Positions 18,196-49,168 of a DNA stretch of 64,000 bases are shown here, in pieces (position 1 is the stretch's first letter; each line of letters begins with the position of its first letter). The stretch comes from Clusia tigrina. Its lineage: Eukaryota > Arthropoda > Insecta > Diptera > Clusiidae. The notes under the pieces are model-generated. The model was not told where the DNA came from and did no database searches. It worked only from the letters and a program-made list of their open reading frames with translations. Position numbers and translations under genes: made by a program. The stretch lies in NCBI GenBank assembly GCA_920105625.2, contig OV050030.1, positions 113,690,814 to 113,754,813 of the forward strand, read 5' to 3'.

Positions 18196-18226
18196 ACTTA
18201 TCCAGTCAACTTGCCCAAACCCTCGA

Positions 18227-18341
<115 letters not shown>

Positions 18342-18438
18342 TCTTCTTGCCTTTGTGCTTGTGTGACCTCCGGTTTTAATTAAATGCCTTCCCACGGTCC
18401 AAAGGCTCTGCCGTGGGCGACCATATACCCTAACACTC

Positions 18439-19815
18439 GTGGGAATTTATATATATATAGGTCTAACCAAAAAACAAAAAACACAAATAAACGATGAATC
18501 TGCTGATGGGCAATCATCGTCGGTCATTTCGACCGACCCAGCTGTTGGGTTGGAGATCTCCTCTTCAGTTGCGTGCAGAGTTGTTGCAAATGCACCTAGC
18601 CAAGTCACAACATCATCTACGTTGGTAGGTGTTGTTGACCAACAATGCTACGCATCAGCATCTACGGTGTTGACTGCAGTTGCAAAAAATAAAACTTTTC
18701 TGGCTTCGATACCACCACCACAGAATCTTGAATCAGGTCATGAGTCAATGGTGACAACAACAATATGACCTCAGACAAATCTGGGTGCACGGTTATTGGT
18801 TCAGACCTAAGCAATCTGAACATAAAAAGTGACTTCATAAAAATTACTTTGGCAGAGAAGAGACACTTCAAGCAAGCGTTGACAGGTGGTCACTCTAGGG
18901 AAAAGGCCCTAGAGATTGCTAAAAGTGAGGCCACGGCGAAAAGGGCTCGCTCAGAAGAGTCCCCAACAGAAACGCCATCTATCAAGAAGACCAAAACGTC
19001 ACCTTATGTAGGTGAGCCAACGTTTAGTCAAGTGGCCAGCATTATTCGGCTGGGAATTGTTACGACCGATTTAATAAGGGCGCCATTCACTAAGAACAGT
19101 TGGTTCTAATCCAAGAGACCGTTATTGACGTTATGATAGAGGTCAACGACAATAACAACAAACCAGTGTTTGAGGACCTAGCAAAGAGAAACGGATGATC
19201 ACTGTTCCTATGCTCAAATGAGAAATGTTGTTTGGAAATGACGCTCGGTGAGGTATCAAAGTTTCCAAAAACGTATGTGCTCAGAGGCTACTGCTCACAG
19301 AGCACCGAGCTTCCAACTGAAAAAATTCTTGCCACCATTGGGGCGCAGAATGCAATGGCAGCGAAAAATTGGAAGGTGATCCTAAGGTCGACCGTGGGTG
19401 CGTCGCTTCACTTTCACAGTGCAAAGGGAAGATAGCCTATCGCTATGGACTTGTGCGTCTCATATTAAAGAGCAACAAATGCGCAGAAAAAGTCAGAGAT
19501 AGCGCAAAAAAACCAACAACACCGACTCTCGGGAGCAGTGCTAAAGGGCATGCTGGTGACACAAGGTCCAACGAAGCGGAGGCTAATACACCATCGACTA
19601 CCAAAGCCGCGCTAGAACGACAAAGAGAACTCTCAGGCACAAAAACAACAACAACAAAACAGGATGCCGCAGTATGGCATGCGCGGAAAGCGCCTCAGCA
19701 TGACAAAACAAAAGCCAAGCATACTAGGGGCTATAGAGACCACAAAACAAGGGTCCTAGGGGCACAAGGCTCCAGAAACTCGCTGCGGAAAGCCGCCGCA
19801 AATGAGCAATCTTAA
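18439..19815 (+). pseudogene. LOA2 ORF1 (gag-like), broken
   Basis: At least three frames are needed. 18439-18768 is a serine/threonine-rich N-terminal part. 18765-19109 contains KRHFKQALTGGHSREKALEIAK and a KRARSEESPTETPSIKK basic segment. 19130-19440 carries the domain corresponding to the LOA1 ORF1 C-terminus (GYCSQSTELPTEKILATIGAQN, then NWKVILR). 19369-19815 is a lysine/threonine-rich tail. The stop at 19813-19815 overlaps the presumed ORF2 ATG at 19802 by 14 bp. Breaks occur near 18770, 19109 and 19400. Confidence 0.7.
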
Positions 19816-22800
19816 AGTGCTACAGGCGAACTTGCACCATGCTAAAGGACCATCGGCCATCCTGTGCAAGAGATTCGGTGACGAAGTGGCAAAATCAAAT
19901 GTCTTACAAATAAAGGATGCAAGTTGGTTTATTAGCACTGTTCGCGGCCCAGAGCGGCGATTTTGATTGATTTTAATACTAACCATTTTCTCATTTCATA
20001 ATTTAATAGTTAAGATCTAGTAGCTATCTTTGTTGAAGGCTCAACAGAGAAGGGAGCGCAGGAAATTGTTTGTGTACTCGCCTACTTTCCAGGTGAGTCA
20101 AACATTATACATCCCATGGAGGGCCTTATTGGGCACTGCCACAACAACAATCTGCAGTATGTGATTGGTTGTGATGCAAACGCGCACCATTATGTATTGG
20201 GAAGCTCGGACATTAACAATAGAGGTGAGTCTCTCTTAAGTTTGCTCTTAAGTAAAAATGTTAACATGTGTAATAAGGGTAAAAGGCCAACCTTTATTAA
20301 TCCGGTTAGAGAAGAGGTATTAGACTTGACTCTAACCAGTCCTCACATCGCCAATTTGGTTAGTAATTGGCATGTATCTGACGAGCCCTCTCTGTCAGAT
20401 CATTTACATATAAGATCCGATTTACCTGGTAAATTTGAATTAGAAAATGAAGTCTTCAATCCAACAAAGACAAATTAAGGGAATTATTAGAATCAAGAAC
20501 CAATTCGCTGCCTACAAGTATAAGTTATGTCGGTGAACTCGAGGAGCCGGTGTATCGACTAAATGATATAATAATTTCAACATATCATGAAAGCACTGCG
20601 GCCAAAACACACAATGTGACTCGTAATGTCCCATGGTGGAATCACAAACTTGCAGATATGCGTAAAAAGATAAGAAAACTGTTCAATCGTCGTAAACGCA
20701 CGAAGATGTGGGTCGCTCTTGACAAACTACAACAAAGAACTAAGAAGAACCAAGCGTGAGTCTTGGAAAAAATTTTGTGAAAGCATAGTCGAAACGGCAG
20801 AGAGCGCTAGGTTCCACAAAGCTTTACGCAAGGAACACTCGAATGGTGTTGCAACTTTAAGAAGACCAGATGGATCTTATACAATGAATTGGAGGGACAT
20901 TCTAGAATACCTGCTTCAAGTGCACTTCCCGGGGTCAATTAAAGTGTCACTGACACTGGAGCAGCCGTCATGCAACCGATGGGCCATATTAGACAAAATA
21001 TCCTGGAGTTTGTCTGGAGTAATATTTACCCCAGACAAAGTTAGATGGGCTGTTGGGTCCTTTAAACCAATCAAGACACCAGGTGAGCATAACATTTCTC
21101 CAGGCCTCTTGATAAGAGGACTGGATATAATGCTTGAATCACTTGTTGATATTTTTAGGAACAGTTTCAGCAGGGAGTACATACCATCCATATGGCGTAA
21201 AGTCAATGTGGTATTTATTCCAAAATTGGGCAAGAGGTCCAACGAACTACCTAAATCTTAAAGACCTATCAGTCTCACGTCGTTTCTTCTAAAAACTATG
21301 GAAAGATTGGTGGATCTACATATGAGAGAAGCGCTAAACAGCACACCACCTCTGCATCAGTCTCAGTCTGCATATAATAGGGGGAAATCCACGGAGGGAG
21401 CGCTTCATTACCTTGCAACAAAGATAGAGAAAGCTCAATATTCCAAGCAAATTGCTTTATGTGCCTTATTAGATGCCGAGGGTGCCTTTGATAATACCAG
21501 TTACGGCTCTATCGAAGGGGCTCTGCAAAAATATCGATAAACCGACTGTTGGGTGGGTTAAAACGATGTTAAAAAGTAGAAAAATTAGCTCATCTCTGGG
21601 AGACGGGGCCGTATCAGTCAAGGCAATGAGAGTCTGTCCTCAAGGCGGTGTGTTGTCACCCCTTCTATGGTCTTTAGTTATTGACGATCTTTTAGTCAAT
21701 CTACAAGAGTTAGGCTTCGAGGCAATTGGATATGCTGACGATCTTGCTGTCATTATTAGTGGCAAATTTGAAAGAACAGTATTCGACATTATGAATCATC
21801 ATCTCAGAATGGTGTCGCGCAGAGGGGTTATGCATGAATCCTAGCAAAGCCATTCTCGTTCCTTTTACAAACAGATTAAAATTGAATCTTGGTACAATAG
21901 CTGTTGAGGGAATCAATATAGAATATTCCAATGAAGTCAAATATCTAGGTGTAGTTCTGGATAAGCGACTGAATTGGAACTCTCACCTACACTCGGTGAT
22001 AAACAAAGCACAAGAGCAATGTGGGCATGTTGAAGTCTCTTTGGTAGAACATGGGGTCTAGACTCAAAAATGATACAATGCATGTATGTAATGATGGTTA
22101 GACCAATCATTACCTAAAAATCCCTTGTGTGGTGGCCCAAGACAACAAAAGAATCTGGTAAGAAAATACTTACAAGATTTCAAAGACAGGCTTGCGTGGC
22201 AATCACCGGTGCCATGCGAAACTGCCCAACCGCTGCTATTGAGGCTATAATAGGACTATCCCACCTACACGCATTCGTGAAAAAATGTGCTGCTAGAAGC
22301 GCATTAAAGATGAAGATCGTGGCTAGACAAGAACCTCACGACTATGGTCATTTCAATATTTTGAATAACATACCAGATCAAAACATAATCTGCTCAATAA
22401 CGGACTATATAATTCCAAAACGACAAGTTGATCGCAATTTTGAGATTATTATCGCAAACCTTGATTAATGCGATACAGGAGGACCTTGGGTCAACCCTAG
22501 AAGTCTGGAATGGTTCACAGACGGTTCAAAAAAAAAAACACCGGAGTCGGTGCAGGGGTCTATGGACCAAATACCAAAATCTCAGAACCAATAGGCAAGT
22601 AACCTAGCATCTTCCAGGCTGAAATTCAAGCAATCTCAATCTGTATGAGAACAAATCTGAAAAGGGGTATCAAGGGTGCACACATAACTATCTATTCAGA
22701 TAGTCAAGCTGCATTATAGGCATTAGCTTCATATTCTTTAGAATCGAAACTGGTGGAAGAATGCTTCAACAACTTACAATCTTTAGGTGCAACAAATAAA

Positions 22801-23388
22801 GTTGCAATTTTCTGGGTCCCGGTCACTCGGGGATCGCCGGCGACGAAATTGCTGACGAAATGGCTAGGGCCGTTTCTGCAGAAAGCATCATAGGTCCGGA
22901 GCCACACTGTGGTATCAACTGGGCGGAGCCTAAATCCGAGGTTGATGGCTAGGAACATAGTTTCAAAATGTCACACTGGGAAGGAATAAAGGGACTTCGC
23001 CAAGCCAAAAGACTGGTAAGGCCATTCACCTACAATAAGGAACTGCGCAATATGTGCAAAGCAAACATAGGGAAAATAATAGGTTTTCTATCAGGTCATT
23101 ACTACCTGAAATATCACCTGACAAAAATCCACATTATTGATGCTACGGAGTGCCGGCTCTGTCTAGAAGCGGAAGAAACCACAGAACACATATTGTGCAA
23201 CTGCATTCGGGTTGGCAAGAATAAGAAGGAATATATTCCACCGCGACCAGCTGGCTCTGGAAGAATTAAAGAATGCTCCTGTTATGGACATTCTCAAATT
23301 CATCCTTAAAGCAGAAAAGATATTGAAGGAACATGACTTTCACAACTACTTCCTTTCTTTAGAGAAGGAACATCAAGGTAGAAAATAA
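19802..23388 (+). pseudogene. LOA2 ORF2 (endonuclease, RT, RNase H), broken
   Basis: The start reads MSNLKVLQANLHHAKG at 19802. Endonuclease: GCDANAH at about 20169 and SDHLHI at about 20395. RT: KTPGEHNISPGLL, then a stop at 21261 just before PISLTSFLLK, then SQSAYNRGKSTEGALH, LLDAEGAFDN, CPQGGVLSPLLWS and the intact YADD at 21731-21742. RNase H: FTDGSK near 22515, FQAEIQAI, SDSQAAL, followed by a frameshift within the GH region at about 22825. The terminal motif CRLCLEAEETTEHILCNC lies near 23150-23205. Stops or shifts fall at 20478, 20759, 21261, 21540, 21844, 22061 and elsewhere. It is long dead, although the RT active site is unchanged. Confidence 0.83.
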
Positions 23389-23604
23389 CCTGATCACTTA
23401 AATTGTGCCGCTTTAACATCATCAAACGGACGAAATGCTATGGCTATTCGAAAGAAATGCCGGTAATAAACCTATAGGGAATAGTAGATCAGACAATTGT
23501 GATCACATGGATCATTAATGACAAATGTAGTACGACACAAAATATCCTTTAGGTCGCTGTGTCGGCCATGGGGCAAACTACTAAAACTAAATTATTATTA
23601 TTTT

Positions 23605-23965
23605 TAAATTGACTAAGTATAGATTCCGTAAGTAGTGCCCTACTCACGAGTGTAGGCTGGGGATTGCCTCTAGCAACTTATGCACGAGATGGAAGGGTAG
23701 GAGGAGGAAGAGTTCATTTTACACAAGTTATGCACGTGTCCAGCGCTGTTCAGAAGGAGGCGCACATTCCTGGGCCACCACTTTCTGGACTCTTTGGGAG
23801 ATATCTCAAATAAAGGGTTAGCCCCATCAACTGCTTCAATAAAAGCTCCAAATAGCTGGAGCTTTGAAAGTGATGGGGCGTGTTGTCTCATGCGGTATCA
23901 CAACGGATCAATTTTGGAGTTAGTGAGCCCTTCGGGAGCCGCTATACCTACCAACCTACCTAATA
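23605..23965 (+). mobile_element. 3' end fragment of an I-like non-LTR retrotransposon
   Basis: The plus strand encodes the last part of an RNase-H-bearing ORF2: EEEEFILHKLCTCPALFRRRR, then FLGHHFLDSLGDIS, resembling the tail of the I-like element at 62.7-63.8 kb (FSTCPAFARNRELLLGSHFL). It ends in a CTACC-type repeat tail (CTATACCTACCAACCTACCTAA). The 5' side joins LOA2. Only about 350 bp remain, which fits 5' truncation. Confidence 0.65.
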
Positions 23966-24395
23966 TGTAAGAATATCGTCATTCATTTCTTTTAACATAA
24001 ATAAAAAAAATATTTAAAGTCATGTCGCGGTCGTTATTCTCAACTTGAATGCTCATCAAATGTCACCAAGAAGTAATAAAAATCGATAAACAACAATCAT
24101 CCGTCAAGCTTCTGTCGTCGTTCGTAATTGTAAGATTAGTGAGGGAGAGACTTATCGGTCACATTGCTTTGCATACAGTCTGAAAACAGCTATTTGCTAC
24201 GGGATTTTTATTTTATTTCGTTAATATTAATCGGAACTTTAAATTAGAAACTAAGTAGAAATATTGTAAATATCCAGTCATGATAATGGATTAAAAAAAT
24301 ATTAACAACTCAGCTCTACAAATATAAAAAAGCGTAAATACTTTTCTATTAAAAATTCTATATAATTACCCCTCTGAAGTTGTTTCCACTATTTT

Positions 24396-25092
24396 TTAAT
24401 AGCAGCTAACATTATTTGAAAGCTGTAGAGCTATGATGTTTACAATTGCTTGAACTTCTGCTATTGCAAAGTTTCCAGTGTCTTCACATTTAAGCGTCTT
24501 CCATATAAAATGTATTTCGAAATAATCTCAAGACGTGAATTTACAAATTTGCTCGATTGTAACTGGATGATCAAGCATGCGCGTATTCATAGCAGGGCAA
24601 ACAAATACTAGTTTCTGAAAATTCCAATCACGGACTACGCTCATACGAAGATTGTCACAAATACCCTGTAGAATAATAAAAGCGAGTTGAAGCTTTGAAA
24701 ATGTAACAAAAACAAGAGATAAGCTTACCGATGATATTTTAGCAAGCGAATTAGCACTAAGTGGAGCAATCAATAAAATGTCTGCTGGCATTTAGCGAGC
24801 TCAATATGTATCATTGGATCACTCTGTTTAATCCAACTGGTCCATTCTCTTTGATCATCCAATAGAGATATAGAGATATATCGCCTGGGATCTCAGCTAT
24901 CTCGAAGAAATGTTTTGCATATTCAGTAGCAATGACAGTAATCTAAAATACCCTAAATAATTAATGTTTAATATAAGTTCGAATAATTAACTCACATCGA
25001 ATTTGACCAGAAGCTCTGAAATGCAAAACTTCTGTAATAGTATTGGTAATTTAAGAGTGGCAACTGAGCGCAATTAAAATTTTCGTCTTCAT
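24396..25092 (-). pseudogene. PPCDC-like pseudogene A (phosphopantothenoylcysteine decarboxylase)
   Basis: PPCDC removes CO2 from 4'-phosphopantothenoylcysteine in coenzyme A synthesis, using FMN. Three exons are visible on the minus strand: about 25092-24996, 24942-24729 and 24665-24396, separated by GT-AG introns of 53 and 63 bp. Family motifs: VIATEYAKHFF, ADILLIAPLSANSLAK, GICDNL, VCPAMNTRMLDHPVT and a final AIAEVQAIVNI. The PAMNT loop asparagine and the cysteine of the flexible flap are present. Lesions: a frameshift in exon 1 (the GTGSVA loop is lost), an ATATCTCTAT duplication in exon 2, a frameshift before ADILL and a stop after KFTS in exon 3. Retained introns show DNA-level duplication, not a retrocopy. 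Confidence 0.82.
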
Positions 25093-26580
25093 AGTTGATA
25101 TTATAATAACTTAGAAATTTTTATTTATTAAACTATTAACAATTCACTATGTCATTAATTCCCATTTTACCTCATCTGAAGAATCTAACGAAAAAACGAT
25201 GTTTAACATGTGCATGAAACTGACCATCGGCAAAATTTTTAACGATCCTGTCTGGGGATAATTTTCTGCTAAAAGTTAAATGAAAAATCATTTTGGAGAC
25301 AAAAGAGTGGAGGGATTTCTAGCTCCCCATGCGCGAGATAACTTCCAACTGAGGCCTATAAGAAAATGAAGTTGGTACCACCAAAATACCTACCAAATAC
25401 ATGAAATAAGACCCACGGCGGTCGTAAATAAATTTCTCAGCTATTTTGACGCCACTGAGTATAATTATTAGTATGGTGACAACGATGATGATACGGGATA
25501 TTGATTGTATAGCTGGCAAACCTGCTATTGCAAAGTTTCCAGTGTCTTCACATTTAAGCGTCTTCCATATAAAATGTATTTCGAAATAATCTCACGACTT
25601 GAATTTACAAATTTGCTCGATTGTCACTGGATGATCAAGCATGCGCGTGTTCATAGCAGGGCAAACAAATAGTAGTTTCTGAAAATTCCAATCACGGACT
25701 ACGCTCATATGAAGATTGCCACAAATACCCTGTAGAATAATAAAAGCGAGTAGGAGCTTTGAAAATGTAACAAAAGCAAGAGATATGCTTACCGATGATA
25801 TTTTGGGAAGCGAATTAGCACTAAGAGGAATCTGCCCATTTGCGAGTTCAATATGTATCACTGGATCACCCTGTTTAACCCAACTGGTCTATTCTCTCTG
25901 ATCATCGAATACAGACATATCGCTTGGGATCTCAGCCATCTCAAAGAAATGTTTTGCATATTCAGTAGCAATGACTTGAATCTAGAATGCTCTATATAAT
26001 TAATGTTTAATATAAGTTAGAATAATTAATTCACATCGAATTTGACCAGAAGATCTAAATGCAAAACTTCTGTAATAGTATTGGTGATTTATGAGTGGCA
26101 ACCGAACGAGTACCAGAAATTAAAATAGTCTTCTTCATAGCTGATGTTATTAAAACTGTACAATTTAGAAATTTTTATTCATTAAACTACTAACAATTCA
26201 CTATATCATTAATTCCCATTTTACCTCATCTGAAGAAACTAACGTCAAAACAATGTCTAACACGTGCATGAAAGTGACCAAACGGCAAAATTTTAAACGA
26301 TCCTGTCTGGGGATAGTTTTCTACTAAAAGTTAAATGAAAATTGATTTGGAGACAAAAGTGTGGAGGGGTTTCTAGCTCCCCATGTGCGAGATGACTTCG
26401 AACTAAGGCCTATAAGAAAATGAAGATGGTACCACCAAAATACATACCAAATCCACGAAATAAGACCCACGGTGGTCTCAAATAAATTGCTCAGCTATTT
26501 TGACGCCACTGAGTATAATTATTATTATGGTGACAACGCTGATGATACAGGATACTGATTGTATAGCTGACAAACCTGTA
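24461..26580. repeat. Tandem duplication, unit about 1064 bp
   Basis: CTATTGCAAAGTTTCCAGTG starts at 24461 and again at 25525. The sequence then runs in parallel through PPCDC exons, introns and upstream flank to about 25524 and 26580. The junction fuses the upstream flank of copy A to the middle of the last PPCDC exon of copy B. Confidence 0.85.
25525..26138 (-). pseudogene. PPCDC-like pseudogene B (3'-truncated tandem copy)
   Basis: Same exon-intron plan as copy A, starting at the ATG at 26138-26136. Exon 1 reads LISGTRSVATHKSPILLQKF and meets an in-frame stop. Exon 2 shows EYAKHFFEMAEIP, a stop where copies A and C have a Trp or Cys codon (E-stop-TSW), VIHIELAN and a deletion removing the DILLIAP segment. 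The second GT-AG intron is retained, followed by GICGNLHMSVV and CPAMNTRMLDHPVT. The last exon is cut at the tandem junction (25525) after the AIA codons. Multiple lesions rule out function. Confidence 0.8.
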
Positions 26581-27003
26581 CGGAAATATTAAAATTTGTG
26601 TTTTCAGCAAGGAAGGTATCCAGGTATCAGCCATTATTTCATACGGCAGTATGCATACTTTCTGATTATTGTTCAGACAATGTTATATAAAATGCAAGCT
26701 TCCTCCATAAATAAAGTAGAAGGCAGCTACAACAAGAGTCATAGCTTCAACTTCAAAATTAATTTCAAGTCTACATTAAATGGCTACATTAAATGGCAGT
26801 GTCAACAGAGACGGTCGGTCAGAAATTTTACCAAATCGCGAGTTAAAATTTCCTTCAAACCAATCGAATCTTCTACAATAGTGCAAAAGTGTAGTGATCG
26901 GTGAGAACCTAGTTCACGATTACTAGCTATATTTTTAACAATAATTAGAAAACAAAAATACACAATTGAAATACAAACAACAAAAAACAACAACATAATT
27001 AAA

Positions 27004-28655
27004 ATGAGTGTCTCTGACACTCACCAGCAAAAAACAGTAACAAATAGAAATGCATATTTCTCATTTGTGTCCACACAGGGTAACGGCGGCAATTTGCCAG
27101 TCGAAGCAGCAGAGAGCAGAGCCAGGTCCTGCTCTCCCGCTCTCCTAAACGACACCACTACGAATGCTTCACTACCTTGGAGTGTCCAATGCGTGACACC
27201 CTTTACTATTATGGAACATTATCCACCAAACACAACATCAGGAAGAACAACAACAACACAAAGCGCTTGTACTGTAACCATAGCCGCGACAGCGACAAGT
27301 AGAATGCAAAATTCGAGCGCAATGATCATGTCTACTGACACAACAACACCAATTACAACAGCAACCATTAACACGCAAGTACAAAACTCAAAAAATAGAA
27401 ACACTAACAAAACTTCAGCGGAGAGTAGCCGAAAGCGAAACCGCGAAAAGCAATCGCCAAACAAACTAACGGACCAAAATAGCAACAACAAAAGACAGAC
27501 AAACAAACCACTGAGCGCGACACAAGCAACACTAAAAGAATATTGGCTGAGTAAGTCAATCGCTCCAAATACACCAAACAGGTTCGAACTACTAACACTA
27601 AATGACAGAACTGATGAACAAAATAACAGTGGGACAAAAACAAATTCAACCATACAGAAACAAATAACAAAGCATCCTCAAAAACCACCACCCATATATA
27701 TACAAAACGTAGAAAATATTAATGCTAACTAAAGCTCTAAATCAGCTACCAAATTCAAATTACGAGATGAAAGCTCTGAACAAAAACAAAGTCAAAATAC
27801 AGCCGACTGAATCTGTGCATTACACAAGCATAATAAAATTGCTTAAGCAAAAAGAAACCAAATATTATACATTTAAGCCAAAAGAACAACGTGGACTTAA
27901 GTTAATTTTACGAAATTTGCATCACTCAACGGAAAAAGACGACAATATAGCTGAACTGGCAGAGTTAGGACATGAAGTACTAAACATTCACAACTTGTAA
28001 AAAAATAGACAACCACTTCCTTTATTTTCTCTGGAACTTAAACCAAACGATAACAACAAAGACATCTATTCCTTAACCCATATTCTACACTGCAAAGGAA
28101 ATTTCGAACCACCACACCAAAAAAGAACTATTCCACAATGCACAAATTGCCAAAAATATGGACACACTAAAACTATTGTACTAAAGACCCTTGTATGTCA
28201 AATGTGCAGGTAACCACAGCACAATTAAATGTAATATCCAAAGCGATATGAAACAGCAAATTAAATGCGCTCTCTGCACTGAAAACCACACAGCTAACTA
28301 CAAAGGCTGTATGATTTACAAATCACTACAAATTAAAAAATATCCAACTTTACGTAAAAAAGAAATCCCTCCAACTCAAGAACCAAATTTTGCTGAACCA
28401 TCTATAAATATACCCACAGTACAAACACATAAAAACTACACACCTGGAATGTCATATGCTTAAGTAGCAGCGATAAATACAGCAGCAGACTTAACTCAAA
28501 ACCTTAACGCAGCAGCAAACAGCATGACACCAACACAGAATAACGACGATCTATCAGATTTAAAAATAATGATGAAACAATTAATAACTCAAATGACAAG
28601 TATGATGAACATTGTGACACTTCTTGTATCAAAACTAGATGGGTTCCAGAAATAA
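27004..28655 (+). pseudogene. Jockey J2 ORF1 (gag-like)
   Basis: Starts with MSVSDTHQQK at 27004 and is open for 242 codons with a Thr/Asn-rich low-complexity N-terminal part. It contains ATLKEYWLSKSIAPNTPNRFELL and PPPIYIQNVENINAN, the entry to the Jockey ORF1 core. A frameshift near 27725 leads to a frame with YYTFKPKEQRGLKLILRNLHH, the domain that precedes the knuckles. Zinc knuckles follow across another shift: CTNCQKYGHTKT, CQMCAGNHSTIKC and CALCTENHTANYKGC (28135-28310). A stop occurs at 28463. The C-terminus, DLSDLKIMMKQLITQMTSMM, ends at 28653-28655, overlapping the ORF2 ATG by 17 bp. Confidence 0.82.
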
Positions 28656-31315
28656 AATAACTTTTGCTATTTGGAACGCCAATGGCCTATCACGCCACTT
28701 ACTAGAACTTAAAACGTTTATGTACGAAAATTCAATCGATATTATGCTAATATCTGAAACGCATACTACTGATAGAAGCTATAATGACATACCAAACTAT
28801 AACATTTATTATGCACATCATCCTGACAATCGAGCCCACGGAGGGACAGCAACTATCATAAAAAAATCTATTAGGTGCCTAGAACTAGAAGGATATAAAT
28901 CACATCATATCCAAGCAGCCTCAATAGAGATAAGTGACCTGAGAGGGCCAATTACTGTGTCAGCTGTATACTGTCCACCCAAATATAACAACACAAAGGC
29001 TCAATACATAGACTATTTAAAATCATTGGGTAGTCGTTACATAGCTGGAGGAGACTATAATGCTAAAAACTCCATATAGGGCTCAAGACTGACAAACGTG
29101 AAAGGCCGACAACTACTAGACGCTATAAAAGAGAATAATAGTCGCTTTATTAGCACGGGAGAACCAACTTATTGGCCAACAGACAACAAAAAATTACCTG
29201 ACTTAATTGATTTCTGTGTTACAAAAAACATATTGCACGACCACTTAACAATAAAAACATGTCTAGATTTATCATCAGACCATTCTCCAATTCTATTGAC
29301 CCTTCAAAGCACACCGGATACAAAAATAGCTGCTGGCTTAGATAACTACAAAACTGACTGGAACAAATTTCGCCAATTAATGGAAAAATGACAAGACAAC
29401 AAACATTTCATTGAAATCTGATAAGGAACTTGACACAGCAATAGCATACCTAAATGACAACATCGTCAAAGCAGCAACTCAATCAACCCCAATTCTAAGC
29501 CCATTCCAAATTACTACTATCCCAGTTCACATTAAGCATAAAATAAGACAAAAAAGGAAACTCAAGAAAATATGGGAAAGCACTAGACACCCAGACGACA
29601 AAGCAAAATCCAACAAAGCGGCAAATGAACTGAATATAATAATGAAAGAATTTGAGGAGAAAAAATTTGAAAGTTACGTAAAGAACTTAGGAACGACAAC
29701 ATCAACGAACTACTCATTATGGAGGGCGACCAAAAAACTATACAGTGCAATACCACATAAACCCCCCATAAAAACACTAGATAATACTTGGGCAAAAACG
29801 AATAAATACAAAGCAAATACTCTTGCAAAACATTTTGAAACGGTATTCAGAAACGACATGGACAATCAAATTACCGAGCTTACCAATACCGTAAGTACCC
29901 GAAACACTGCAATAAAAATGACAACGATATCAGAAATCAAGAATCAAAACAAGAATTTAAAAAACAAAAAGGCACCTGGATATGATCTTATTAACGGAAA
30001 AATACTGAAAGAACTACCTGACATGACAATAGTCTATATTAGAAATGTATTTAATGCTATAATAAGGCTTAACTATTTTCCAATCTTGTGGAAGGTAGCA
30101 CAAATAACAGCTATCCCAAAGCCAAATAAGGACGCAACAAGAACCAGTTCATATCGACCTATCAGTCTCTTGCCAACTCTTTCAAAGATATTTGAAAAAA
30201 TATTATTTGACAGAATTGAGCCTATCTTGATACAACAAAAAGCTTTGCCAAGCCATCAATTCGGCTTTAGATGAAACCACTCAACTGTGCAACAAGTTCA
30301 TAGAGTTGTGAACAAAATCATGGATGATATTGACAAAAAGAAGTACTGCGTGGCTGTATTCCTGGACATTGCGAAAGCGTTTGACAGAGTGTGGCACTAA
30401 GGACTTCTGAATAAACTAAATAATATTCTACCTTTAAACTATTATTACTTGCTAAGCAGTTATATCACCAACAGATACTTTTACATTAAATATGATGATG
30501 AATGCTCTGAGATCCTAACAATGACAGCGGGAGTGCCTCAAGGCAGTGTGCTGGGTCCACTCCTATACTTAATATACACTGCAGACATTCCAACCCTAAA
30601 GACACAAGGAACCATGATAGCAACATTCACGGATGACACGGTCCTCTTAGCATCCAATCAAGACGAAAAAGCGGCGACAGGCATACTTCAACAAATAATA
30701 AAAAATATAGCCTCGTGGTTCGAGAAATGGGGAATAAAAGTTAACAAAGAGAAAACTGTCCAAGTAATATATACGAATAGAAACTCTGCTAAACACCCAC
30801 TCACAATAAAAGACGAAATTATTAAAATTTGCCCCAGCGCAAAATACCTTGGCATAGCAATCGACGCAAAACTTACATGGAGACAACATATATTAAATAA
30901 ACGAAATGAAATAAAAAGTAGATTCAAACAATTAAACTGGTTACTAGGACTTAGTTCAAAGTTATCACTGTATAATAAAAGAATGATATATACATCAGTG
31001 ATAACACCCATCTGGAATTATGGGATCGAAGTATGGGGTACAGCAAGCAAAACGAATATACAACTGATTCAAAGAACACAATGCAAAATACTGCGGACAA
31101 TCACAAAAGCCGACTGGTATATAAGAAATGAAGACATGCACCACGATATCAACATTGACTCGGTGGAAGACACCATTAAAAAATGTAGCCGCAAATACAC
31201 AGAGCGCCTAAAAATTCATCAAAAGCGAGACGTGCGCCAATTGCCGGCAATAGAAAAAACAAAAAGAAGACTCAAACGAATTGGACCCACAGAACATCCA
31301 CATAGAATATTTTAA
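28639..31315 (+). pseudogene. Jockey J2 ORF2 (endonuclease + RT)
   Basis: ATG at 28639. Endonuclease motifs: WNANGLSRH, ISETHTT, GGDYNAKNS and SSDHSPILL. An in-frame stop at 29077 replaces a position in the normally conserved tryptophan region after NAK. A frameshift lies at 29391-29411. RT motifs: KKAPGYDLINGKILKEL, PKPNKDATRTSSYRPISLLP, HQFGFR followed by a stop at 30272, FDRVWH with a stop at 30398, GVPQGSVLGPLLYL and FTDDTVLLAS (Jockey families usually have FADD; both aspartates remain). The C-terminus runs to 31315 without RNase H. Four lesions in an otherwise complete protein suggest moderate age. Confidence 0.88.
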
Positions 31316-31490
31316 ACGACACTTTTCGTATATAAATTAATTATATATAATTAAAATAAATTATGTTCTGTGGTAATGACTAAAGAACATATTAAGGTCC
31401 ATAGTAGCATTTAAAAATTACTTATTGTTCACGAACAGAATGTAATTAAAAATGGGGCAAAAATAAAAAAATTGAAAAATAAAAAAAATG

Positions 31491-32365
31491 TCAAGTCGCT
31501 AACAGAATTATCTCCTGACAGAAACTGCATCCTAGCTACGAATAGATCCAGCATTACGTAGCCAAGCTTCATCAGTTAACTTCTCAACGTGTTGTCCAAT
31601 TAGAAGATCTCCGGCGACACATACTACCGAAGATTTACTTTGACTTCGCCAGAAGCACAACTACTCGCATAAGCTGGCATCACCTTCCACCCATTCAACA
31701 AACTGCAGAGAAGACATCAATAGGTTTTAAAAATTCAACTACTACTACGACATAATATAATGTCGTTGAGGTGAGCAAAACACACGGCGGCTTACAATTT
31801 TATACGTACCGTTCCTGAAAAAGTGGAGGGGAATGCAGAATTCACCGGGACAATGCAGCGTACCAGGAGGAAGAGGATGTAGTAGTATTACAGATATAAA
31901 TGATAGGAATAAGTTGTAAAACAAAAAGTTTTAAGAATAAATTATAGGGATAAGTTGTAAAACAAAAATATTTTCAGAATAAATTATAGGAATCAATTGT
32001 AAAAACAAAAGCACAAACAAAAAGAAAAGATAAAAGAAAAAACAAAGAAGATGAAAAAACTAAAAGGGTCCAATAATAGAAAAAAAATAAAAATGAAGAA
32101 AAAAAAATAAATAAGAAAAAAGGGACCGATATGAAAAAAAAATAATGTCAAAGAACAAAATACAAAAACAAACAAAAGAAAAACAGAGAGAAAATAATAA
32201 AGAAACTACAGAAGATAAAACAAACAATAAGAACCTAAAACATGGCAAAGATATATAATAAAAAGCAAGTATATTGTATAGTATATAGGATGCAGAAATT
32301 GTTTATGATGTAGACATATCACTAGAGAATAAGGAGAATTAATAACTAAGAGGTAGTTGCACTAG
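31491..32365. repeat. P-unit copy 1, right part
   Basis: Resumes the unit after J2: GCTAACAGAATTATCTCCTG here matches GCAAACAGAATTATCTCCTG at about 49639, and CTTCTCAACGTGTTGTCCAA matches the 36570 region. It ends in an A/G-rich stretch (about 31915-32270) that is low complexity and gives spurious Lys- or Phe-rich frames. A shared end block with GGATGCAGAAATTG (32289 and 37214) closes the unit. Confidence 0.78.
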
Positions 32366-32388
32366 CCCTCTAGAAAGAGGGTTAGTGC
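32359..32388. other. 13-bp stem hairpin
   Basis: GCACTAGCCCTCT (32359-32371), a 4-base loop and AGAGGGTTAGTGC (32376-32388). One position pairs as a wobble. It lies at the right edge of P-unit copy 1. The rest up to 32865 shows no recognisable gene. Confidence 0.8.
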
Positions 32389-32865
32389 TACTGGCAACCA
32401 AATCTCAATAGCACCAAGGTTGTATCAATAAAAATAACAAAGGTACGCACATTTCCAATTGAAGTGCTTCGAACTTTTGCCATGATGCACGGTCAGAACT
32501 TTCGTGAAGAGAAAAGCAATTGAAAATTAGAAAGTAACGATTGTAAATAGACATAAGCAGGTGATTTGAAATTAGAGAAAATATTCTAACAACTGAACAC
32601 AAGCGAGTTCTTACTCGCGCGAATAGAATCAGTGTACTCAGGCTGCTATCAAGCGACCAGTTATCGTCCAGGATATATCCCAACAATAATGGCGCTACCT
32701 GTAGGATCCGGCAAACATGTAAGGATAATGTGTCGATATGCCCCAACTAAGAAAAAAAATAAGAGAGTTTGTGAAAACTTTTAGAAACTGCTCGAATTTT
32801 TTTTTATAAATGGATGAAGTGAAAAGATATTAAAGCCAAAAGGTAAAAGAAATTTTTTTAGCATG

Positions 32866-34637
<1,772 letters not shown>

Positions 34638-35506
34638 TGTGACGTGCGAAATTATTGATTCATTTTGTTCACACAATAAATGTTCCCCAAAGCAATATTC
34701 ACTGCGAAAATGGACCACCAGCATCACTCGCGTGCGGAGAATTGAGAGTGCCGTAACCAATCAGCTTGCGCGGCCCCATCAACGCTTAATATTATTTATT
34801 AGAATACCTTCGCACCAATGGAAACCACGGCGAAGGTGGGAGCGCATGAAATGCACGAAATATTAACCGTTGGTCAATAGATCACATGCAATTGTAACAA
34901 CAACTACGCAAGCGGAATGTCAACCACAGCATTGGCAAAGCCAAGCTAGCCGGTTGCGTAAGAGAAGGAAAATGAATTGCATGTGGATTATACCAACAAT
35001 AATGCGCCGACAGACTTGGCGAACTCAAGCCAGCCGTTTGCACTGATCGACAACAACATCAACACTAAAAGCAGACTTCAATTAATCGTGCGTTAATTAC
35101 CACAACACGACTCGGTAGAATTTACCGAGTGCGTTAGCTTGGGAAATAGTACAACAACAACACGAGGAAGGAATGATACGAAAAGAGACGACGACATAAT
35201 AGTCGCTGTGCAGACAAGTTGCGCGGACATCACAGAAAGGAGAAACACACAAATAGTGTTCAAACGCTGGTGGATAATTTAAATAATATTAACCACCAGC
35301 AGAAAGAAATCATGCGTGCAACAACAACAACGTACCGCTGCAACTACCACCCGCTTGACAACAGCCGGACTTTTCCAGCAAAACGCTGAGGGTCGCCTAA
35401 GGTCAAGAGGAAAACACCAACAATGCCTTGGCCTTAGCAACAGGAAGCGGTAGTCGGAGCAACGGCCAGCGGGATTGGAACAACAACTAGAGGTTCAACA
35501 GGTGGC

Positions 35507-35514
35507 TATAAAAG
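35507..35514 (+). promoter_or_regulatory. LTR TATA box
   Basis: TATAAAAG followed about 25-35 bp downstream by the presumed start region (CGGGCTTTTTTCGTGC). It would drive genomic RNA of the LTR element. Confidence 0.65.
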
Positions 35515-35652
35515 CGCCTGTAACCGGACATACGGGCTTTTTTCGTGCTAACACATCGCGCAAGTAAGTACCTTAGAAACGTAGCCGCACAGACGCCACG
35601 AGATTAGAAATCAATATCAACGGACAAACACACACACAAGCGCTGCATTTAC

Positions 35653-35897
35653 TACGAATGCTGGATTTTAATCCACTCTCATAGTAAACCAGTACTTGTT
35701 CGTCAACGTTAGAACGGTGGAAGTGGTTTGTCAATCCACCACGGTTGTAACGAAAGACTCAAGGCACGGACCTAGACACTAAGAAGTACTGAGTTTGCTA
35801 CGAACGCTTGGTTTTTCAATCCGCTTTCATAGAAAACCAGGACTTGCTTCTCAAAGTCAAACCGGTGGAAGTGGTTTTTCAATCCACCACCGTTGAG
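35653..35897 (+). repeat. Two-copy direct repeat with palindromic motif inside LTR
   Basis: Copies of about 97 bp start at about 35653 and 35799 (TACGAATGCT and TACGAACGCT). Each contains the palindrome GGTGGAAGTGG...CCACCAC, able to form a GGTGG/CCACC stem. They are separated by about 50 bp of unique sequence and lie downstream of the TATA box, so they are in the R/U5 RNA. Confidence 0.7.
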
Positions 35898-35997
35898 ACT
35901 GGAGACAGGACTGCACAGCACCAAGTTCAGGAACGGCCTTTATAAAGTCATCATTTTTGTAATAAGGTGTAAAACCTAGAAATAAGAATAAGGATTT

Positions 35998-36003
35998 AAT
36001 AAA
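35998..36003 (+). terminator. LTR polyadenylation signal AATAAA
   Basis: AATAAA about 90 bp before the LTR end, followed by GT/TA-rich sequence. Position fits an R/U5 boundary. Confidence 0.55.
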
Positions 36004-36097
36004 GAAAACTTAAATATTACAACGCCTGAGTAATTTTCTATATACGACCCCTGGAGCCGCTGAGTTTTACCCCAGCTATAAATTTGAGTCGTTACAG

Positions 36098-36115
36098 TGG
36101 CGCCCGAGCAGAGAC
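36098..36115 (+). other. tRNA primer-binding site
   Basis: TGGCGCCCGAGCAGAGAC, starting one base after the LTR end. The TGGCGCCCG core is that of lysine-tRNA-primed elements; the rest departs slightly. Confidence 0.7.
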
Positions 36116-36187
36116 TATAAAAACAAGGAAATTCAATGCATCTGATGCTCACCCATAGTCTTCGCCATTAACCAGGAAAGTCACAGG

Positions 36188-36330
36188 ATGTGGAAAACAA
36201 GCTGGGTGTACGTGCTACGGAAAGATGAGCTGGTGATTTTTGCGGAGAAATTCGGTTTGGAAAATACAGGCACAGTGGATGACCTCCGAAAGCGGCTTTC
36301 TGAGTTTTTCACACAAACGGTACTGACTCA
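36188..36330 (+). pseudogene. Truncated gag of the LTR element (SAP-like segment)
   Basis: ATG at 36188 opens a frame with LRKDELVIFAEKFGLENTG and VDDLRKRLSEFF, resembling the helix-extension-helix of SAP-type nucleic-acid-binding domains seen at the start of some insect LTR-element gag proteins. After about 48 codons the deletion joins it to the 3' LTR stub and the frame runs into LTR sequence. No other gag or pol domain remains. Confidence 0.55.
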
Positions 36331-36374
36331 GGAGCCGCTTAGTTTTACCCCAGCTATAAATTTGAGTCGTTACA
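36331..36374 (+). repeat. 3' LTR remnant, 44 bp
   Basis: Matches 36053-36096 with one mismatch and is followed by the target-site duplication GTAC. Confidence 0.88.
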
Positions 36375-37285
36375 GTACGGAAACATCAAAATTTGTCTTT
36401 TCCGCAAGGAAGGTATCAATGTAGCAGCCATTATTTCATATGCCAGTGTGCATATTTTCTGATTCCCCTTCAGATAGTGTTATATAAAATCCAAGCTTCG
36501 TCCGTAAATAAAGTTGGAAGCAGCTACAACAACATTAAGCCAAAATTCATTGTCTTACTTCTCAACGTGTTCTCCAATTAGAAGATCTCCGACAACACAT
36601 ACTACCGAAGATTTACTTTGACTTCGTCAGAAGCGCAACTACACGCATATGCTTGCATCATGTTACACCCATTCAAAAAAGTGCAGAGCAGACATGAATA
36701 GGTTTTAAAAATTCAACTACTACCACGACATAAAAGCAATCGGTGAGCAAAACATATGCCGGCTACCAATTTTATACGAACCGTTCCTGAAAGAGTGGAG
36801 GGGACTACAGAATTCACCGAGGGAATGCAGCGCACCAGGAGAAAGAGGTGGTATTTTAACAATAAATTATGGGAATAAGTTGTAAAACAAAAATTAGTAT
36901 TGTAAGAACAAATTATAGGGATAATTTATAAACCAAAGGCAAAAACAAAAAGAAAAGAAAACGGAAAAAACAAAAAAGAAGAAAAAGAAAAAGTGTCCAA
37001 TAATAGAAAAAGAAATAAAAATAAAGAAAAAATAATAGCTAAGAATGAAAAGATCAATATAAAAAAAAATAATGATAAAAAAAACCAAAACACAAAAACA
37101 AAAAAGAAGGAAAATAATAAACAATCTATAGAAGATAAAACAAACAATAGGAACCTAAAACATGGCAGAGATAGATAATAAAAAAACAACGCCAATGTAT
37201 TGTATAGTATATAGGATGCAGAAATTGTTTTTGGGGCAGGTATATCACTAGAGAATAGGAAGAATTACTAAGAGCTAGTTGCTCA
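36375..37285. repeat. P-unit copy 2, right part
   Basis: Corresponds to 26576-26770 plus 31530-32365, with local deletions (for example the ATTTCAAGTC J2 target is missing here). It includes the TATATAAAA segment near 36480 and the A/G-rich tail (36930-37140), whose Lys-, Phe- or Leu-rich reading frames are low-complexity artefacts. From 37286 to about 37500 nothing is recognised. Confidence 0.75.
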
Positions 37286-37499
37286 TCATATGTCACAACC
37301 GTGCCGTTGAATCTGTTTGCAGCGGAGGGATACGAAAGCTGTATTTGAACGGAGCCTCTCCGATACCTGGTCACCTGGTCGGCTCAGAGTGGAATTATGA
37401 CTTTACCACATTATCGGCGCTATGATGTGGTGGACATACAAATCCCCTACATTCGTGGCAATCAAGTGGAAAACACAAAATCAAATAAAACGAGTACAG

Positions 37500-39004
37500 A
37501 AATCTGAAGTCGGGTTAGACCGACTTCGATATTCCCTTTACCTTTCCTTGTGCGTGCGAGTTCAACAATGAGGATGTTTTCTTCATAAATTATCATTAGG
37601 AGCATATTCACGGTAATTTGATAGGGTACCTTGAAATGATTATATCGACCCCATTTCTTGTGTATGGATTTCTAGTGTCAATATAACCACTAATATAAAA
37701 ATTCGTCCAAAAATATTGTGTAGGTCGAAAGTTATAACAATACTTCAGTAGTGGGCGTGGCGGTAAAAATAACACGCCCATTTTTTGTGTTGTGTTTAAT
37801 GTTACTACCCGCAACCTACCTGTGAAATTTAGTTGAAAAATCTTTAATAGGAACCTAGTAATGATTTTTGGTTAATTATGGGCGTGGCAGTAGCAATAAA
37901 CTGCCTATATTTGGAATGCATGCTAGTACAGACCCAGTGTATACATACACCAATTTGTTTTCATATATCATCACTAGAAGCAAGCATAGATAGGGCAATT
38001 GTCTTTTAAGTGGGGTCCCCAAAGTTCATTATATGGGAGGGAGGCGTATCCTTCCTCTGATCGACCCCGAATCTTGTATATGGCATTGTAGGGTCCATAT
38101 ACGTACTAATATTTCGTCGAAAAATATTGTATAGGTCGCAAGTTATAATAATATGCCAATAGTCGGCGTGGCTGTAGAAATAACACGCCCATTTTTTGTG
38201 TGGTGTTTAATGCTAGTCCCCGCAACCTTCCTGTGAAATTTTATTGATAAATCTTTAATAGGAACACAGTAATGATTTTTCGCTAATTGTGGGCGTGGCA
38301 GGTGTATTATGATTTCCATATTCGGCACACACAATATTATGGACCCCATGTATGTTTCTGCCAATTTTTATTCCGCTGGCATCAATACGAGCATAGGTAG
38401 GCTAATTTTAATTTTAGACCCGAAAGTTCCCTATATCAAAAGTGAGCGTGTCTTTTCTCTGATCAGCCCCACTTTTTGCAGATAGCTTTATAATGTCCAC
38501 ATGTTCCTTCCCGTAAAATTTCGTCCGTAAATCTTTATCAGATCTTAAGTTATTAATATTTGTTAATAGTGGGCGTGGCAGTTAATATATACCGCCCACT
38601 TTTTGCAGTGTTTAGTAGGACCCACATCTCCAAATAATGTCACGATTCCGTTAATGGGACCGAAGTTATAGTCATTTTAAAAAAGGTGAAAAAAGTTCCC
38701 TATATGGGAGGTAAGCGTGGTCTTTGTCCAAATCGGCCCATATCGCAATCTGGTTCTGTATCTTTGTGCAGGTTATACTTTTGCAACATTTCATTAAGAT
38801 AGCTCTAACAGTGTAGAAAAAAAGTGGCCACAGACGGACAGACGGACGGAAAAAAGTAAAAATTGCTTAGAAAGTTATTCTGATCATATCTGTATATATA
38901 TGTTCATACCTACCACGCCTCCTTCTTGAAATTGCAACCCCTCTCAAAACCACAAAATTAGTATTCCCTATTTACCTTTTTTAAAGGTAAAGAGTATAAA
39001 AAAC
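37500..39004. repeat. Non-coding interspersed repeat with internal subrepeats and inverted ends
   Basis: The ends are inverted relatives: TATTCCCTTTACCTTTCC near 37530 and AAAGGTAAAGAGTATA near 38985. A perfect 8-bp stem (37506-37513 with 37520-37527) lies at the left edge. Inside, a subrepeat of roughly 450 bp appears about twice and a bit: GTGGGCGTGGC, ACACGCCCATTTTTTGTG and AATCTTTAATAGGAAC recur at about 37745-37915, 38160-38300 and 38520-38610. It includes a CAGACGGACAGACGGACGG segment near 38830. No coding potential. Other copies lie at 52540 and 59190. It is probably a non-autonomous transposon family. Confidence 0.65.
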
Positions 39005-39152
39005 ACTGAACATTAGATCGTCGACGAAAACTTGGAATATAAAAATAAAACAGAAACAATTAATGGTAACGATCTTGTACAACTCAAGTATACAACGAAA
39101 AATACTGCAGAGACATTAGGAGAGCCGATAAGTAACTCCTCTTTATCTGCTA

Positions 39153-40198
39153 CGAGGGCGGATTGATACTGAAGCTACCTAAGTAGGAAAAAAACATTTT
39201 TTTTTTCAAAAACCATTTATTTCTCAACACAGTCTCCTTTTACTTCGACACACTTAGTAAGACGATATTCCAACTTTTTTATCCCATCTGAATAATACGA
39301 TTTCGGGAACCCCTCAAAATACGCGTTAGTTTCGGTAATCACTTCTTCGTTTGAGATGAATCTTTCTCCTGCGAGCCATTTTTTCAAGTTTGGAAACAGG
39401 AAAAAGTCACTAGGAGCTAAATCTGGACTATAAGGTGGATGATTAACCAATTCGAAGTGTATTTCACGTGTGCATCCCAAAATACAGTGGCCACAACCTT
39501 GCCAGCCGATTTCACTGCCTTCGCCTTCTTCGGAACACTTCCACCAGCTTCCACCCATTGTTTCGATTGATTTTTGGTTTCAGATGTGTAGTGGTGGACC
39601 CACGTTTCATCAACAGTTATTAATCGACGCCAAAAATCAACAGGATTACGCTTTATCATGTCCAAACACCGCTGTGAAGTGGTCTGTCGAACTCGTTTTT
39701 GTTCGACACTGAGCAAACGCGGCACCCATCTTGCCGATAGCTTTTTCATATGCAAATGTTCATGCAAAATGTTGAACACACGTTCATATGATATGTTTAC
39801 CATTTCAACAATCTCACGCAACTTGACTCGGCTATCATTCATAACGATATCGAGGATTTTCTTGATATTTTCTTCAGTAACCACCTCTTTTGGCCTTCCT
39901 GTTGAGGGTATTATTGCAGTGCTTGTTCGGCCGCGTTTAAATTCAGCAATCCAATATTTTACCATGTAATCTGACGGAGCAGACACACCGTAATGTTTAT
40001 CGAGCTTTTCTTTTGTCTTTTTCGCCGTTTTCCCTTTCGAATAATAGTGTTTAATCACTGCATGAAATTCGCTTTTTTCATTTTTCAAGAAACACAAAAT
40101 TTTAACAGCTGACGTTTGACAGATCGCAATTTCTAAAACAAATTTTGTGTTTGTCCTCCCATCTAGCGCTAGGTAGCTTCAATATCAATCCGCCCTCG
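39153..40198 (-). mobile_element. mariner (Tc1/mariner) DNA transposon, internally deleted
   Basis: 29-bp terminal inverted repeats at 39153-39181 and 40170-40198 match at 28 of 29 positions, starting CGAGGGCGGATTGATA. TA dinucleotides flank both ends (39151-39152 and 40199-40200), as expected for this superfamily. The length of 1046 bp, against about 1.3 kb for complete elements, agrees with the coding deletion. It is inserted in Jockey J3. Confidence 0.93.
39217..40097 (-). pseudogene. mariner transposase, internally deleted and frameshifted
   Basis: The N-terminal helix-turn-helix region is present (GKTAKKTKEKLDKHYG, TGRPKEVVTEENIKKIL, ERVFNILHEHLHMKKLSARWVP), followed by catalytic motif one, VDETWVHHYT. 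At about 39470 the frame breaks at FWDA: a deletion joins it, in another register, to HPPYSPDLAPSDFFLFPNLKKWLAG, which holds the third catalytic aspartate. The segment with the second aspartate of the D,D34D triad is missing. The only nearby ATG (40081-40079) is out of frame by one base. The ending EYRLTKCVEVKGDCVEK is typical. It resembles the irritans group, judged by eye only. Confidence 0.9.
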
Positions 40199-40204
40199 TA
40201 TACC

Positions 40205-41139
40205 TTTAGGTATTGTACGCACTCGTTCACATTCACTGAGTAACTATTTCACATCTGACAAGAGCAAAAATAAAATTCAAACCGGTATCGATCATTACAT
40301 CACAGCCACAAAAAGGCTGAGAAGCCCGAAATCAATAATGCCAGGAAATCAATCAAAAAAATTTGCTGGTACGGATATTGTCAACTCAAACCTCTCTTAA
40401 CTGATAAAGATGAAGAGCCAGTCAAACCGATAAAGACTGCGAAACCTCCTCCAATATATTTGAGAGAACAAAATTCAACCCTTTAAGACAGGCGCCTGGA
40501 AGTCCTTGTAGGGAGTGGACAATTTCATGTTATTCCTCTGTTAAAAGGGGCCATACATGAGACCAAGATTCAAATTTATGAAGAAGGCAATTTTCGTAAA
40601 TTGATATATGGTTTCGATTCTAGTAAAAGAAACTACTACACTTATCAAATGAAGTCTGCCAAAGGGTTAACAGTTGTAATCAAAGGCATAGAGCATTCTG
40701 TTGGCAATGACGAAATACCAGCTGCTCTAAGTGATGAGAGATATGCGGTCAAATCCGTTTTCAACATATGCAATCTTAGCAAAGTGCCGCAGCCCCTCTT
40801 TAAGGTATAACTTGAACCAGAGAAAATCTAATTGAAAAAAGGTGAATCTCACCCCATCTACACATTAAAGTATCTGATGCACCGCAAAATCACTGTAGAA
40901 GAGCCTAGAAAGAAAGCTGGTCGGGTATAGTGCCATAACTGCCGAAAAATGGGCACACTGTACTCTGAGTGCTGTCTGTGTGATATGTGGAGAAATACAG
41001 AGATACAAGAGTTCTCAGATGTTGCCAAACGTGCTGTACAACAAAGTGATACACCAAGTGGCACATTCAATACTGACCAGCAGAGCCTAATGCAAACTCT
41101 TAACACATTTATGACATCTATGCAAGGTATGCATGACAT
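40205..41139 (+). pseudogene. Jockey J3 ORF1 (gag-like), broken
   Basis: Recognisable parts are IQTGIDHYITATKRL, the PPPIYLREQNS core entry, then FHVIPLLKGAIHETKIQIYEEGN, YYTYQMKSAKGLTVVIKGIEHSV (40601-40807) and a damaged knuckle region (CHNCRKMGTLYSECCLC, near 40930-40980). Stops occur near 40395, 40485, 40807 and 40930. The C-terminal QQSLMQTLNTFMTSMQGM ends at 41139. The same order occurs in J2 and J5. Confidence 0.75.
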
Positions 41140-41142
41140 CTA

Positions 41143-43515: not shown

Positions 43516-43675
43516 TAACATCTTATTACATGCGGTGGAAACACCAAATATTTGATGCAGTGGCTGAGGATATTACATATAAATGTAGTCTTGTAATCTT
43601 AGAAAAATTACTGTTAGTTTCTTAACAAAGAAATCTTCGGTAAATAAATAGATGTAAAAAGAAAAAAAAAATATA

Positions 43676-44990: not shown

Positions 44991-44999
44991 TTTACTAGA

Positions 45000-49151: not shown

Positions 49152-49168
49152 GTTCTGGGCCCATTACC
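49152..49168 (-). other. copia primer-binding site (methionine initiator tRNA type)
   Basis: On the minus strand GGTAATGGGCCCAGAAC. The TGGGCCCAG core is the internal initiator-tRNA match used by copia. Confidence 0.65.

Follow-up and report, generated by a model that had tools for sequence, protein, structure and literature searches.

A partly palindromic array of decayed PPCDC copies linked to a single intact gene in Clusia tigrina

Why should a housekeeping gene of coenzyme A metabolism occur several times, introns included, within one short stretch of a fly genome? This question is raised by a 64,000-nucleotide stretch of the Clusia tigrina genome (hereafter the window; C1:113690814-113754813, within a 1.21-Gb assembly of 666 contigs), in which a preliminary description, made from the letters alone, had recognized three minus-strand copies of a gene segment for phosphopantothenoylcysteine decarboxylase (PPCDC). 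We find that these copies belong to a local cluster, and we conclude that they are very probably non-processed PPCDC pseudogenes that arose by repeated local DNA duplication around one intact gene. Together with their relatives they form an array of non-processed pseudogenes that is linked to the parent gene and partly palindromic; such arrays are already known. Throughout, A, B, C and D denote the units in the window, and all other units are named by their kb position within C1:113 Mb (585, 588 ... 674).

Three decayed PPCDC copies in the window

The three copies, A (24396-25092), B (~25525-26138) and C (33568-34219), lie on the minus strand and carry the PPCDC motifs that had been named for them. 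A composite protein built from A and C matched human PPCDC (1QZU) at E=1.5e-47 and AtHAL3a (1E20) at 2.9e-39, compared with 6.4e-12 or weaker for EpiD-type flavoprotein chains; it matched Pfam PF02441 at 1.1e-25 and, among the best 120 of 306 database matches, had Teleopsis dalmanni PPCDC at the top (56%). Judged by their sequence, the motifs of A, B and C fit PPCDC better than other flavoproteins, and the possibility raised in the preliminary description, that they might align better to an unrelated flavoprotein, did not materialize. When each copy was scanned in one frame with X at stops, none of the three returned a Pfam family, as the match is interrupted by introns and breaks in frame.

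Relative to the intact gene, exon 1 of copy A has an 8-base deletion, exon 2 has insertions of 8 and 2 bases, and exon 3 contains a TGA (its exon limits, given in Table 1, were read by hand from the sequence). Copy B has lost one base in exon 1, and its exon 2 contains a stop and is shorter by a net ~15 bases; it has the exon-3 TGA in common with A and breaks off inside exon 3 where it meets the 5' flank of A (window ~25522). The deletion in copy C takes away the 3' part of intron 1, acceptor included, and extends 15 bases into exon 2. Intron 2 is present with its GT and AG in A, B and C, and intron 1 is entire only in A and B; the earlier claim that both GT-AG introns had been retained thus holds for A and B but not for C. 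Its further claim of a one-base shift before ADI in A and C has to be corrected, as the lesion consists of two added bases: TGGGCAG of the intact gene reads TGCCAGCAG or TGCAAGCAG in copies with this +2 lesion. At the flap motif, where the intact gene has LICGDTGNGAMAE, A and B read LKCEDTGNFAIA.

In an open reading frame test all three copies were frameshifted, A and B also containing stops. Residues invariant across a constraint panel of 20 Diptera proteins, picked from the database matches of PPCDC and yielding 65 such positions, are changed at 15/65 in A, 17/59 in B and 14/65 in C. We expect no product from these copies, which are unable to encode the full enzyme, and most likely they have no function.

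A single intact gene at the edge of the cluster

PPCDC had been expected to be a single-copy gene, and one intact unit was found, on the same chromosome as the copies. This parent gene occupies C1:113,585,223-113,585,918, at the far edge of the cluster and ~105 kb left of the window, and reads on the plus strand as a frame of 191 codons in three exons (C1:113585223-113585327, 113585384-113585587 and 113585652-113585918), with GT-AG introns, 56 and 64 bases long, that occupy the same sites as the introns of the copies. Its protein is 68% identical to Teleopsis PPCDC, the four top-scoring named matches (Teleopsis, Glossina, Musca and Drosophila) falling at 65-68%, and matches PF02441 at 2.4e-31 and 1QZU at 3.9e-63. 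HIEL, PAMNTRM and LICGDTGNGAMAE are all present and align to 1QZU and 1E20, PPCDC/HAL3 flavoproteins of the same sequence family as the parent and its decayed copies; we presume for the catalytic His, the PAMN motif and the flap Cys the roles that they have in PPCDC.

The parent keeps 63 of the 65 panel-invariant residues, departing at positions 72 and 112. At the 41 codons where A and the parent differ in residue, the panel shows only the parent state at 25 and only the state of A at 0, with both states at 10 and neither at 6, a pattern that fits constraint on the parent gene and none on copy A. The parent gene encodes PPCDC and, as the only intact copy found, is predicted to be expressed; PPCDC function would rest on it. 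A transposase relic (C1:113584169-113584717; Pfam TNP-like RNase H, 2.8e-17) lies on its upstream side.

The copies form a local cluster

When the assembly was searched with the protein of the intact gene (E up to 1; 33/33 candidates scored), 39 of 39 PPCDC matches fell within one stretch of ~140 kb, C1:113,585,223-113,725,032, and none was found outside the cluster. The DNA search with window 24460-25520, which the preliminary description had proposed along with a comparison with the functional gene, returned at least 46 matches, 16 in the cluster and 30 elsewhere, as a lower bound with 40 of 142 candidates scored; the 30 outside matches cover query bases 1-343 only, which correspond to the segment upstream of PPCDC. 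The copies are a local cluster and not a dispersed family. For an amplified housekeeping gene this would mostly be ordinary local DNA duplication, though it is unusual for such a gene.

Pieces from a blast of the A unit were grouped into 15 units across C1:113585-113735 kb (~150 kb), a count that depends on manual grouping and joining of the DNA pieces. Unit 594+599 is interrupted by an inserted sequence that contains copia-type gag and RVT_2 frames, and units 604, 608 and 613 consist of exon 3 and 3' flank only. Pairwise differences among units range from 0.1% to 15.8% (16 pieces), and a 14.3-kb pair lying 34.8 kb apart (C1:113586396-113600682 and 113621229-113635513) is 99.65% identical. Changes at panel-invariant residues amount to 12/65 in 588, 11/65 in 623, 13/65 in 659, 12/60 in 670 and 15/65 in 674, to 6/60 in both 599 and 634, to 1/5 in 594, and to 0/25 in the exon-3 fragments 604, 608 and 613.

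In these three fragments exon 3b differs from the intact gene at 1-2 of 207 sites (604 versus 613: 0), and their 3' flanks differ by 4-7%. Selection on the fragments, considered in view of the near-identical exon 3b and the unchanged invariant residues, was rejected because the near-identity runs more than 1 kb upstream and ends in divergence at the exon 3 end. They are probably recent tandem copies, and the exon 3 end looks like a recombination boundary. In each, exon 3 is joined in frame to a long terminal repeat (LTR)-element frame (C1:113603969-113604460, 113608212-113608733 and 113613101-113613592), the fused frames of 604, 608 and 613 being open for 163, 173 and 163 codons, respectively. 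Pfam found no reverse transcriptase in the exon 3-fused frame, for which the reverse-transcriptase label had been given by eye, and the frame just upstream of the fusion matched a retroviral-type aspartyl protease barely past the cut-off (20.9 versus 20.7).

Copies in both orientations could also be taken as the source of small interfering RNAs (siRNAs) or PIWI-interacting RNAs (piRNAs) that match PPCDC and tune the intact gene. The Stellate/Su(Ste) and hairpin-RNA loci of Drosophila consist of repeats that were amplified from genes and match a functional gene exactly over long stretches, and the PPCDC-derived repeats resemble them in this respect: of the 556 words of 21 bases in the intact coding sequence, 290 have an exact match in other copies (90 in the window), compared with a mean of 0 over 20 shuffles. 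Such words may permit small-RNA targeting without showing it, and exact shared words arise from any recent duplication. Unlike the Stellate/Su(Ste) loci, moreover, the cluster has a single enzyme gene as its parent and no close hairpin was seen in it; copy A and its mirror unit in the palindrome described below are ~39 kb apart, and the 25 inverted repeats shown, of the 29 with at least 60 bases at window 20000-40000, all lie in or at a (TA)n tract. Silencing the sole PPCDC gene would presumably be costly as well, and we consider regulation by small RNAs from the cluster very unlikely.

The PPCDC segment is fused to a dispersed repeat

The segment directly upstream of A, B and C, together with an element farther upstream (element 2), belongs to one genome-dispersed repeat family; a genome search with element 2 gave at least 53 matches, 10 in the cluster and 43 outside, as a lower bound with 40 of 670 candidates scored. 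The repeat passes into PPCDC sequence at one identical point, TTCTT/CAGATGAGG, in eight units (588, 594, 623, 629, 659, 674, A and B), and this junction lies ~90 bases ahead of the ATG. In copy C the last base of the repeat is again that of A and B, with ~40 bases of the adjoining PPCDC upstream sequence lost; the intact gene is without the repeat. Five dispersed copies were fetched. In four of them (L033, L035, L036 and L037) the similarity to the cluster ends at the PPCDC junction, and in the fifth (L034) the match stops ~34 bases before it; past the junction, L033, L034, L036 and L037 share another sequence. Two reading frames of the repeat had no Pfam match at E 0.01. At C1:313.50-313.94 Mb the repeat occurs many times close together, in places at ~2-4 kb spacing, which suggests tandem arrays of the repeat itself.

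A junction common to eight units, its end base recurring in C, and the wide distribution of the fused repeat in the genome could all be explained if a transposon had captured the PPCDC segment and spread it. We regard this as highly improbable, given that PPCDC is confined to the cluster in the protein search, that the outside DNA matches cover the repeat part only, and that all five fetched dispersed copies carry other sequence past the junction; target duplications around PPCDC units were not noticed, though no search was aimed at them. The preliminary description had offered DNA duplication or transposon capture and had set reverse transcription aside. Of these, DNA duplication is upheld by the copied introns and flanks, transposon capture is not, with PPCDC found only in the ~150-kb cluster, and reverse transcription is disfavored because introns and non-coding flanks were copied.

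The window holds one arm of a palindrome

A search for inverted matches of at least 250 bases and at least 85% identity between the two sides returned 29, of which 13 chain collinearly over 25,881 bases at 96.7% identity. Eight of the 13 block centres lie at window 6.6-7.4 kb and the rest at -2.3 to 4.5 kb, off centre because of insertions and deletions. Copy A mirrors unit 674 (98.97%) and copy C mirrors unit 670 (96.5% over 982 columns); copy B has no mirror partner, the left arm having one unit opposite A and B together. The long interspersed nuclear element (LINE) that cuts element 2 is flanked by a TCAAGTC target duplication (26765-26771 and 31491-31497) and is absent from the left-arm counterpart of the repeat, being found in the right arm only. 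A second insertion, which splits the repeat upstream of C and is probably of LTR-element type by its ends, has a counterpart within C1:113667860-113669982, inside a block common to both arms, and would therefore be older than the palindrome.

That the array is an assembly artefact, whether a false haplotype duplication or a misresolved repeat, as the 14.3-kb pair and the near-identity of 674 to A might suggest and as the preliminary description had allowed for, is scarcely credible when units differ pairwise by up to 15.8%, each copy has private lesions, the LINE sits in one palindrome arm only and the 294,000 bases of the region contain no N.

Order of events

The distribution of lesions bears on the sequence in which the copies arose. 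The +2 lesion is found in 9 of the 11 units that cover the site (588, 599, 623, 634, 659, 670, 674, A and C) and is missing from the intact gene and from B; the 8-base deletion is common to 588, 594, 623, 629, 674 and A, and the exon-3 TGA to 674, A and B. These lesions, common to several units, support the earlier proposal that part of the amplification took place after inactivation. Copy B keeps TGGGCAG beside its deletion and is therefore read as lacking the +2, and with B so read, the four possible combinations of +2 lesion and TGA are all represented (neither in the intact gene, the TGA alone in B, the +2 alone in C, both in A); barring repeated mutation, the copies have therefore recombined. 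Unit 599 differs from the intact gene at 14/161 sites in exon 2a and at 7/367 over the stretch that starts with exon 2b and runs through exon 3.

We infer recurrent tandem and inverted DNA duplication with recombination between copies, and neither reverse transcription nor capture and spread by a transposon. The founding event would have been a tandem duplication with one break ~90 bases before the PPCDC ATG and the other inside a downstream repeat, such that later copies would carry the repeat in place of the native upstream region. The founder copy would have decayed and then been copied further, after which the array would have been duplicated as an inverted repeat, and recombination would have continued among the copies, involving intact-type sequence on one occasion or more. 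Processed pseudogenes have no introns, and the presence of intron 2 in A, B and C and of a whole intron 1 in A and B is at odds with that class. The units instead resemble non-processed pseudogenes in their copied introns and flanks, their disabling lesions and their linkage to an intact parent, and differ from the usual members of that class in being many, mosaic by recombination and partly contained in a palindrome.

Several points weigh against this history. The four-combination argument rests on B lacking the +2, which is our reading; an alternative alignment places the lesions otherwise, with +2 and -17 at the TGGGCAG site. The split point within exon 2 of unit 599 was chosen after seeing the alignment, and the 3' flank of this unit again differs from the intact gene, at 25/448 sites. 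The number of units depends on how pieces are joined, and assembly could account for part of the 99.65% identity in the 14.3-kb pair. Unit 670 is without the repeat/PPCDC junction and C has it only in part. Where the native upstream region of the parent would be sought, the transposase relic ends ~0.5 kb upstream of the gene. Finally, the part of the repeat that lies beyond the junction, 176 to ~259 bases long in the five dispersed copies, should recur where the array ends, yet a search of the 294 kb did not find it; this absence counts against a founding tandem duplication, or else that part has been lost.

Features of the window and cluster

Coordinates are collected in Table 1. A long (TA)n tract (window ~32862-33109) adjoins the 3' flank of copy C on its downstream side. 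A Mariner/Mos1-type transposase relic lies on the minus strand at window 39417-40178 (Transposase_1 8.7e-08, HTH_48 3.7e-06), and Rfam at gathering scores gave no match in the window.

Table 1. Features of the PPCDC cluster (window positions unless C1 or unit names are given)
Feature	Position	Strand	Remarks
Copy A, PPCDC pseudogene	24396..25092	-	exon 1 25092-24996, intron 1 24995-24943, exon 2 24942-24729, intron 2 24728-24666, exon 3 24665-24396
3' flank of copy A	23973..24395	-	homologous to 3' flank of intact gene
Copy B, PPCDC pseudogene truncated in exon 3	25522..26138	-	cut at junction with flank of A
Copy C, PPCDC pseudogene	33568..34219	-	intron 1 acceptor deletion; +2 in exon 2; -2 in exon 3
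3' flank of copy C	33106..33567	-	
Unit D, PPCDC 3' flank without coding part	43679..44029	-	
Dispersed-repeat segment upstream of A	25179..25524	-	junction with PPCDC at 25179/25178
Dispersed-repeat segment upstream of B	26233..26578	-	
Element 2, part of same dispersed repeat, cut by LINE	26579..26771	-	
Element 2, second part	31491..32360	-	
Dispersed-repeat segment upstream of C	34281..34637	-	
Element 2 copy upstream of C	36375..37282	-	
Element 2 copy, outer palindrome arm	49436..50198	-	
LINE insertion	26772..31490	+	endonuclease (2.3e-09) and RVT_1 (4.1e-16) frames
Insertion splitting repeat upstream of C	34638..36374	.	TG...CA ends, duplicated GTAC
Spacer	32355..32856	-	homologous to region 3' of intact gene, C1:113586833-113587320, 87%
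Palindrome right arm	16148..50189		holds A, B, C, D
Palindrome left arm	C1:113636069-113688661		
Plus-strand units	585 (intact), 588, 594+599, 604, 608, 613, 623, 629+634, 659, 670, 674	+	
Minus-strand units	A, B, C, D	-	

Discussion

Literature searches in an open-access collection that covers few subscription journals turned up no description of this cluster and, by title, no paper on a fly PPCDC pseudogene. A Glossina fuscipes protein named 'phosphopantothenoylcysteine decarboxylase-like, partial' (P0101; 237 aa) has an odd N-terminus and is possibly another duplicated or decayed fly PPCDC copy.

The closest architecture found described is that of the male-determining loci of the housefly. 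The M-III locus is reported to contain 88 Mdmd copies, one of them intact, and is described as not palindromic, and the M-V locus is reported as a palindrome with two intact Mdmd copies (PMC11252125). The PPCDC cluster resembles the Mdmd loci in having one intact gene amid many broken copies and in the presence of a palindrome. It differs in that its gene encodes a coenzyme A enzyme and not a sex determiner, in that palindrome and tandem copies occur in one cluster with 15 units in place of the 88 in M-III, and in that its palindrome, unlike that of M-V with two intact copies, has none found intact. The likeness to the male-determining loci is one of architecture only. One might go further and suppose that an action on the adjacent PPCDC gene keeps the cluster in existence: its copies, which lie in both orientations and are in part identical to the gene, would yield small RNAs or act as conversion partners and so set the PPCDC dose, possibly in a sex- or germline-specific manner, in an architecture convergent on those loci; we consider this a long shot.

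In this fly, a housekeeping gene of coenzyme A synthesis thus sits within an array that is made up of its own broken copies, is partly palindromic and recombines. If the structure holds up in long reads, the cluster would let one ask, in a natural setting, whether an essential gene present only once tolerates numerous conversion donors and potential sources of small RNAs in its neighbourhood. Failing that, the cluster is genome turnover of an ordinary kind, and no gene should be annotated at the PPCDC copies of the window.

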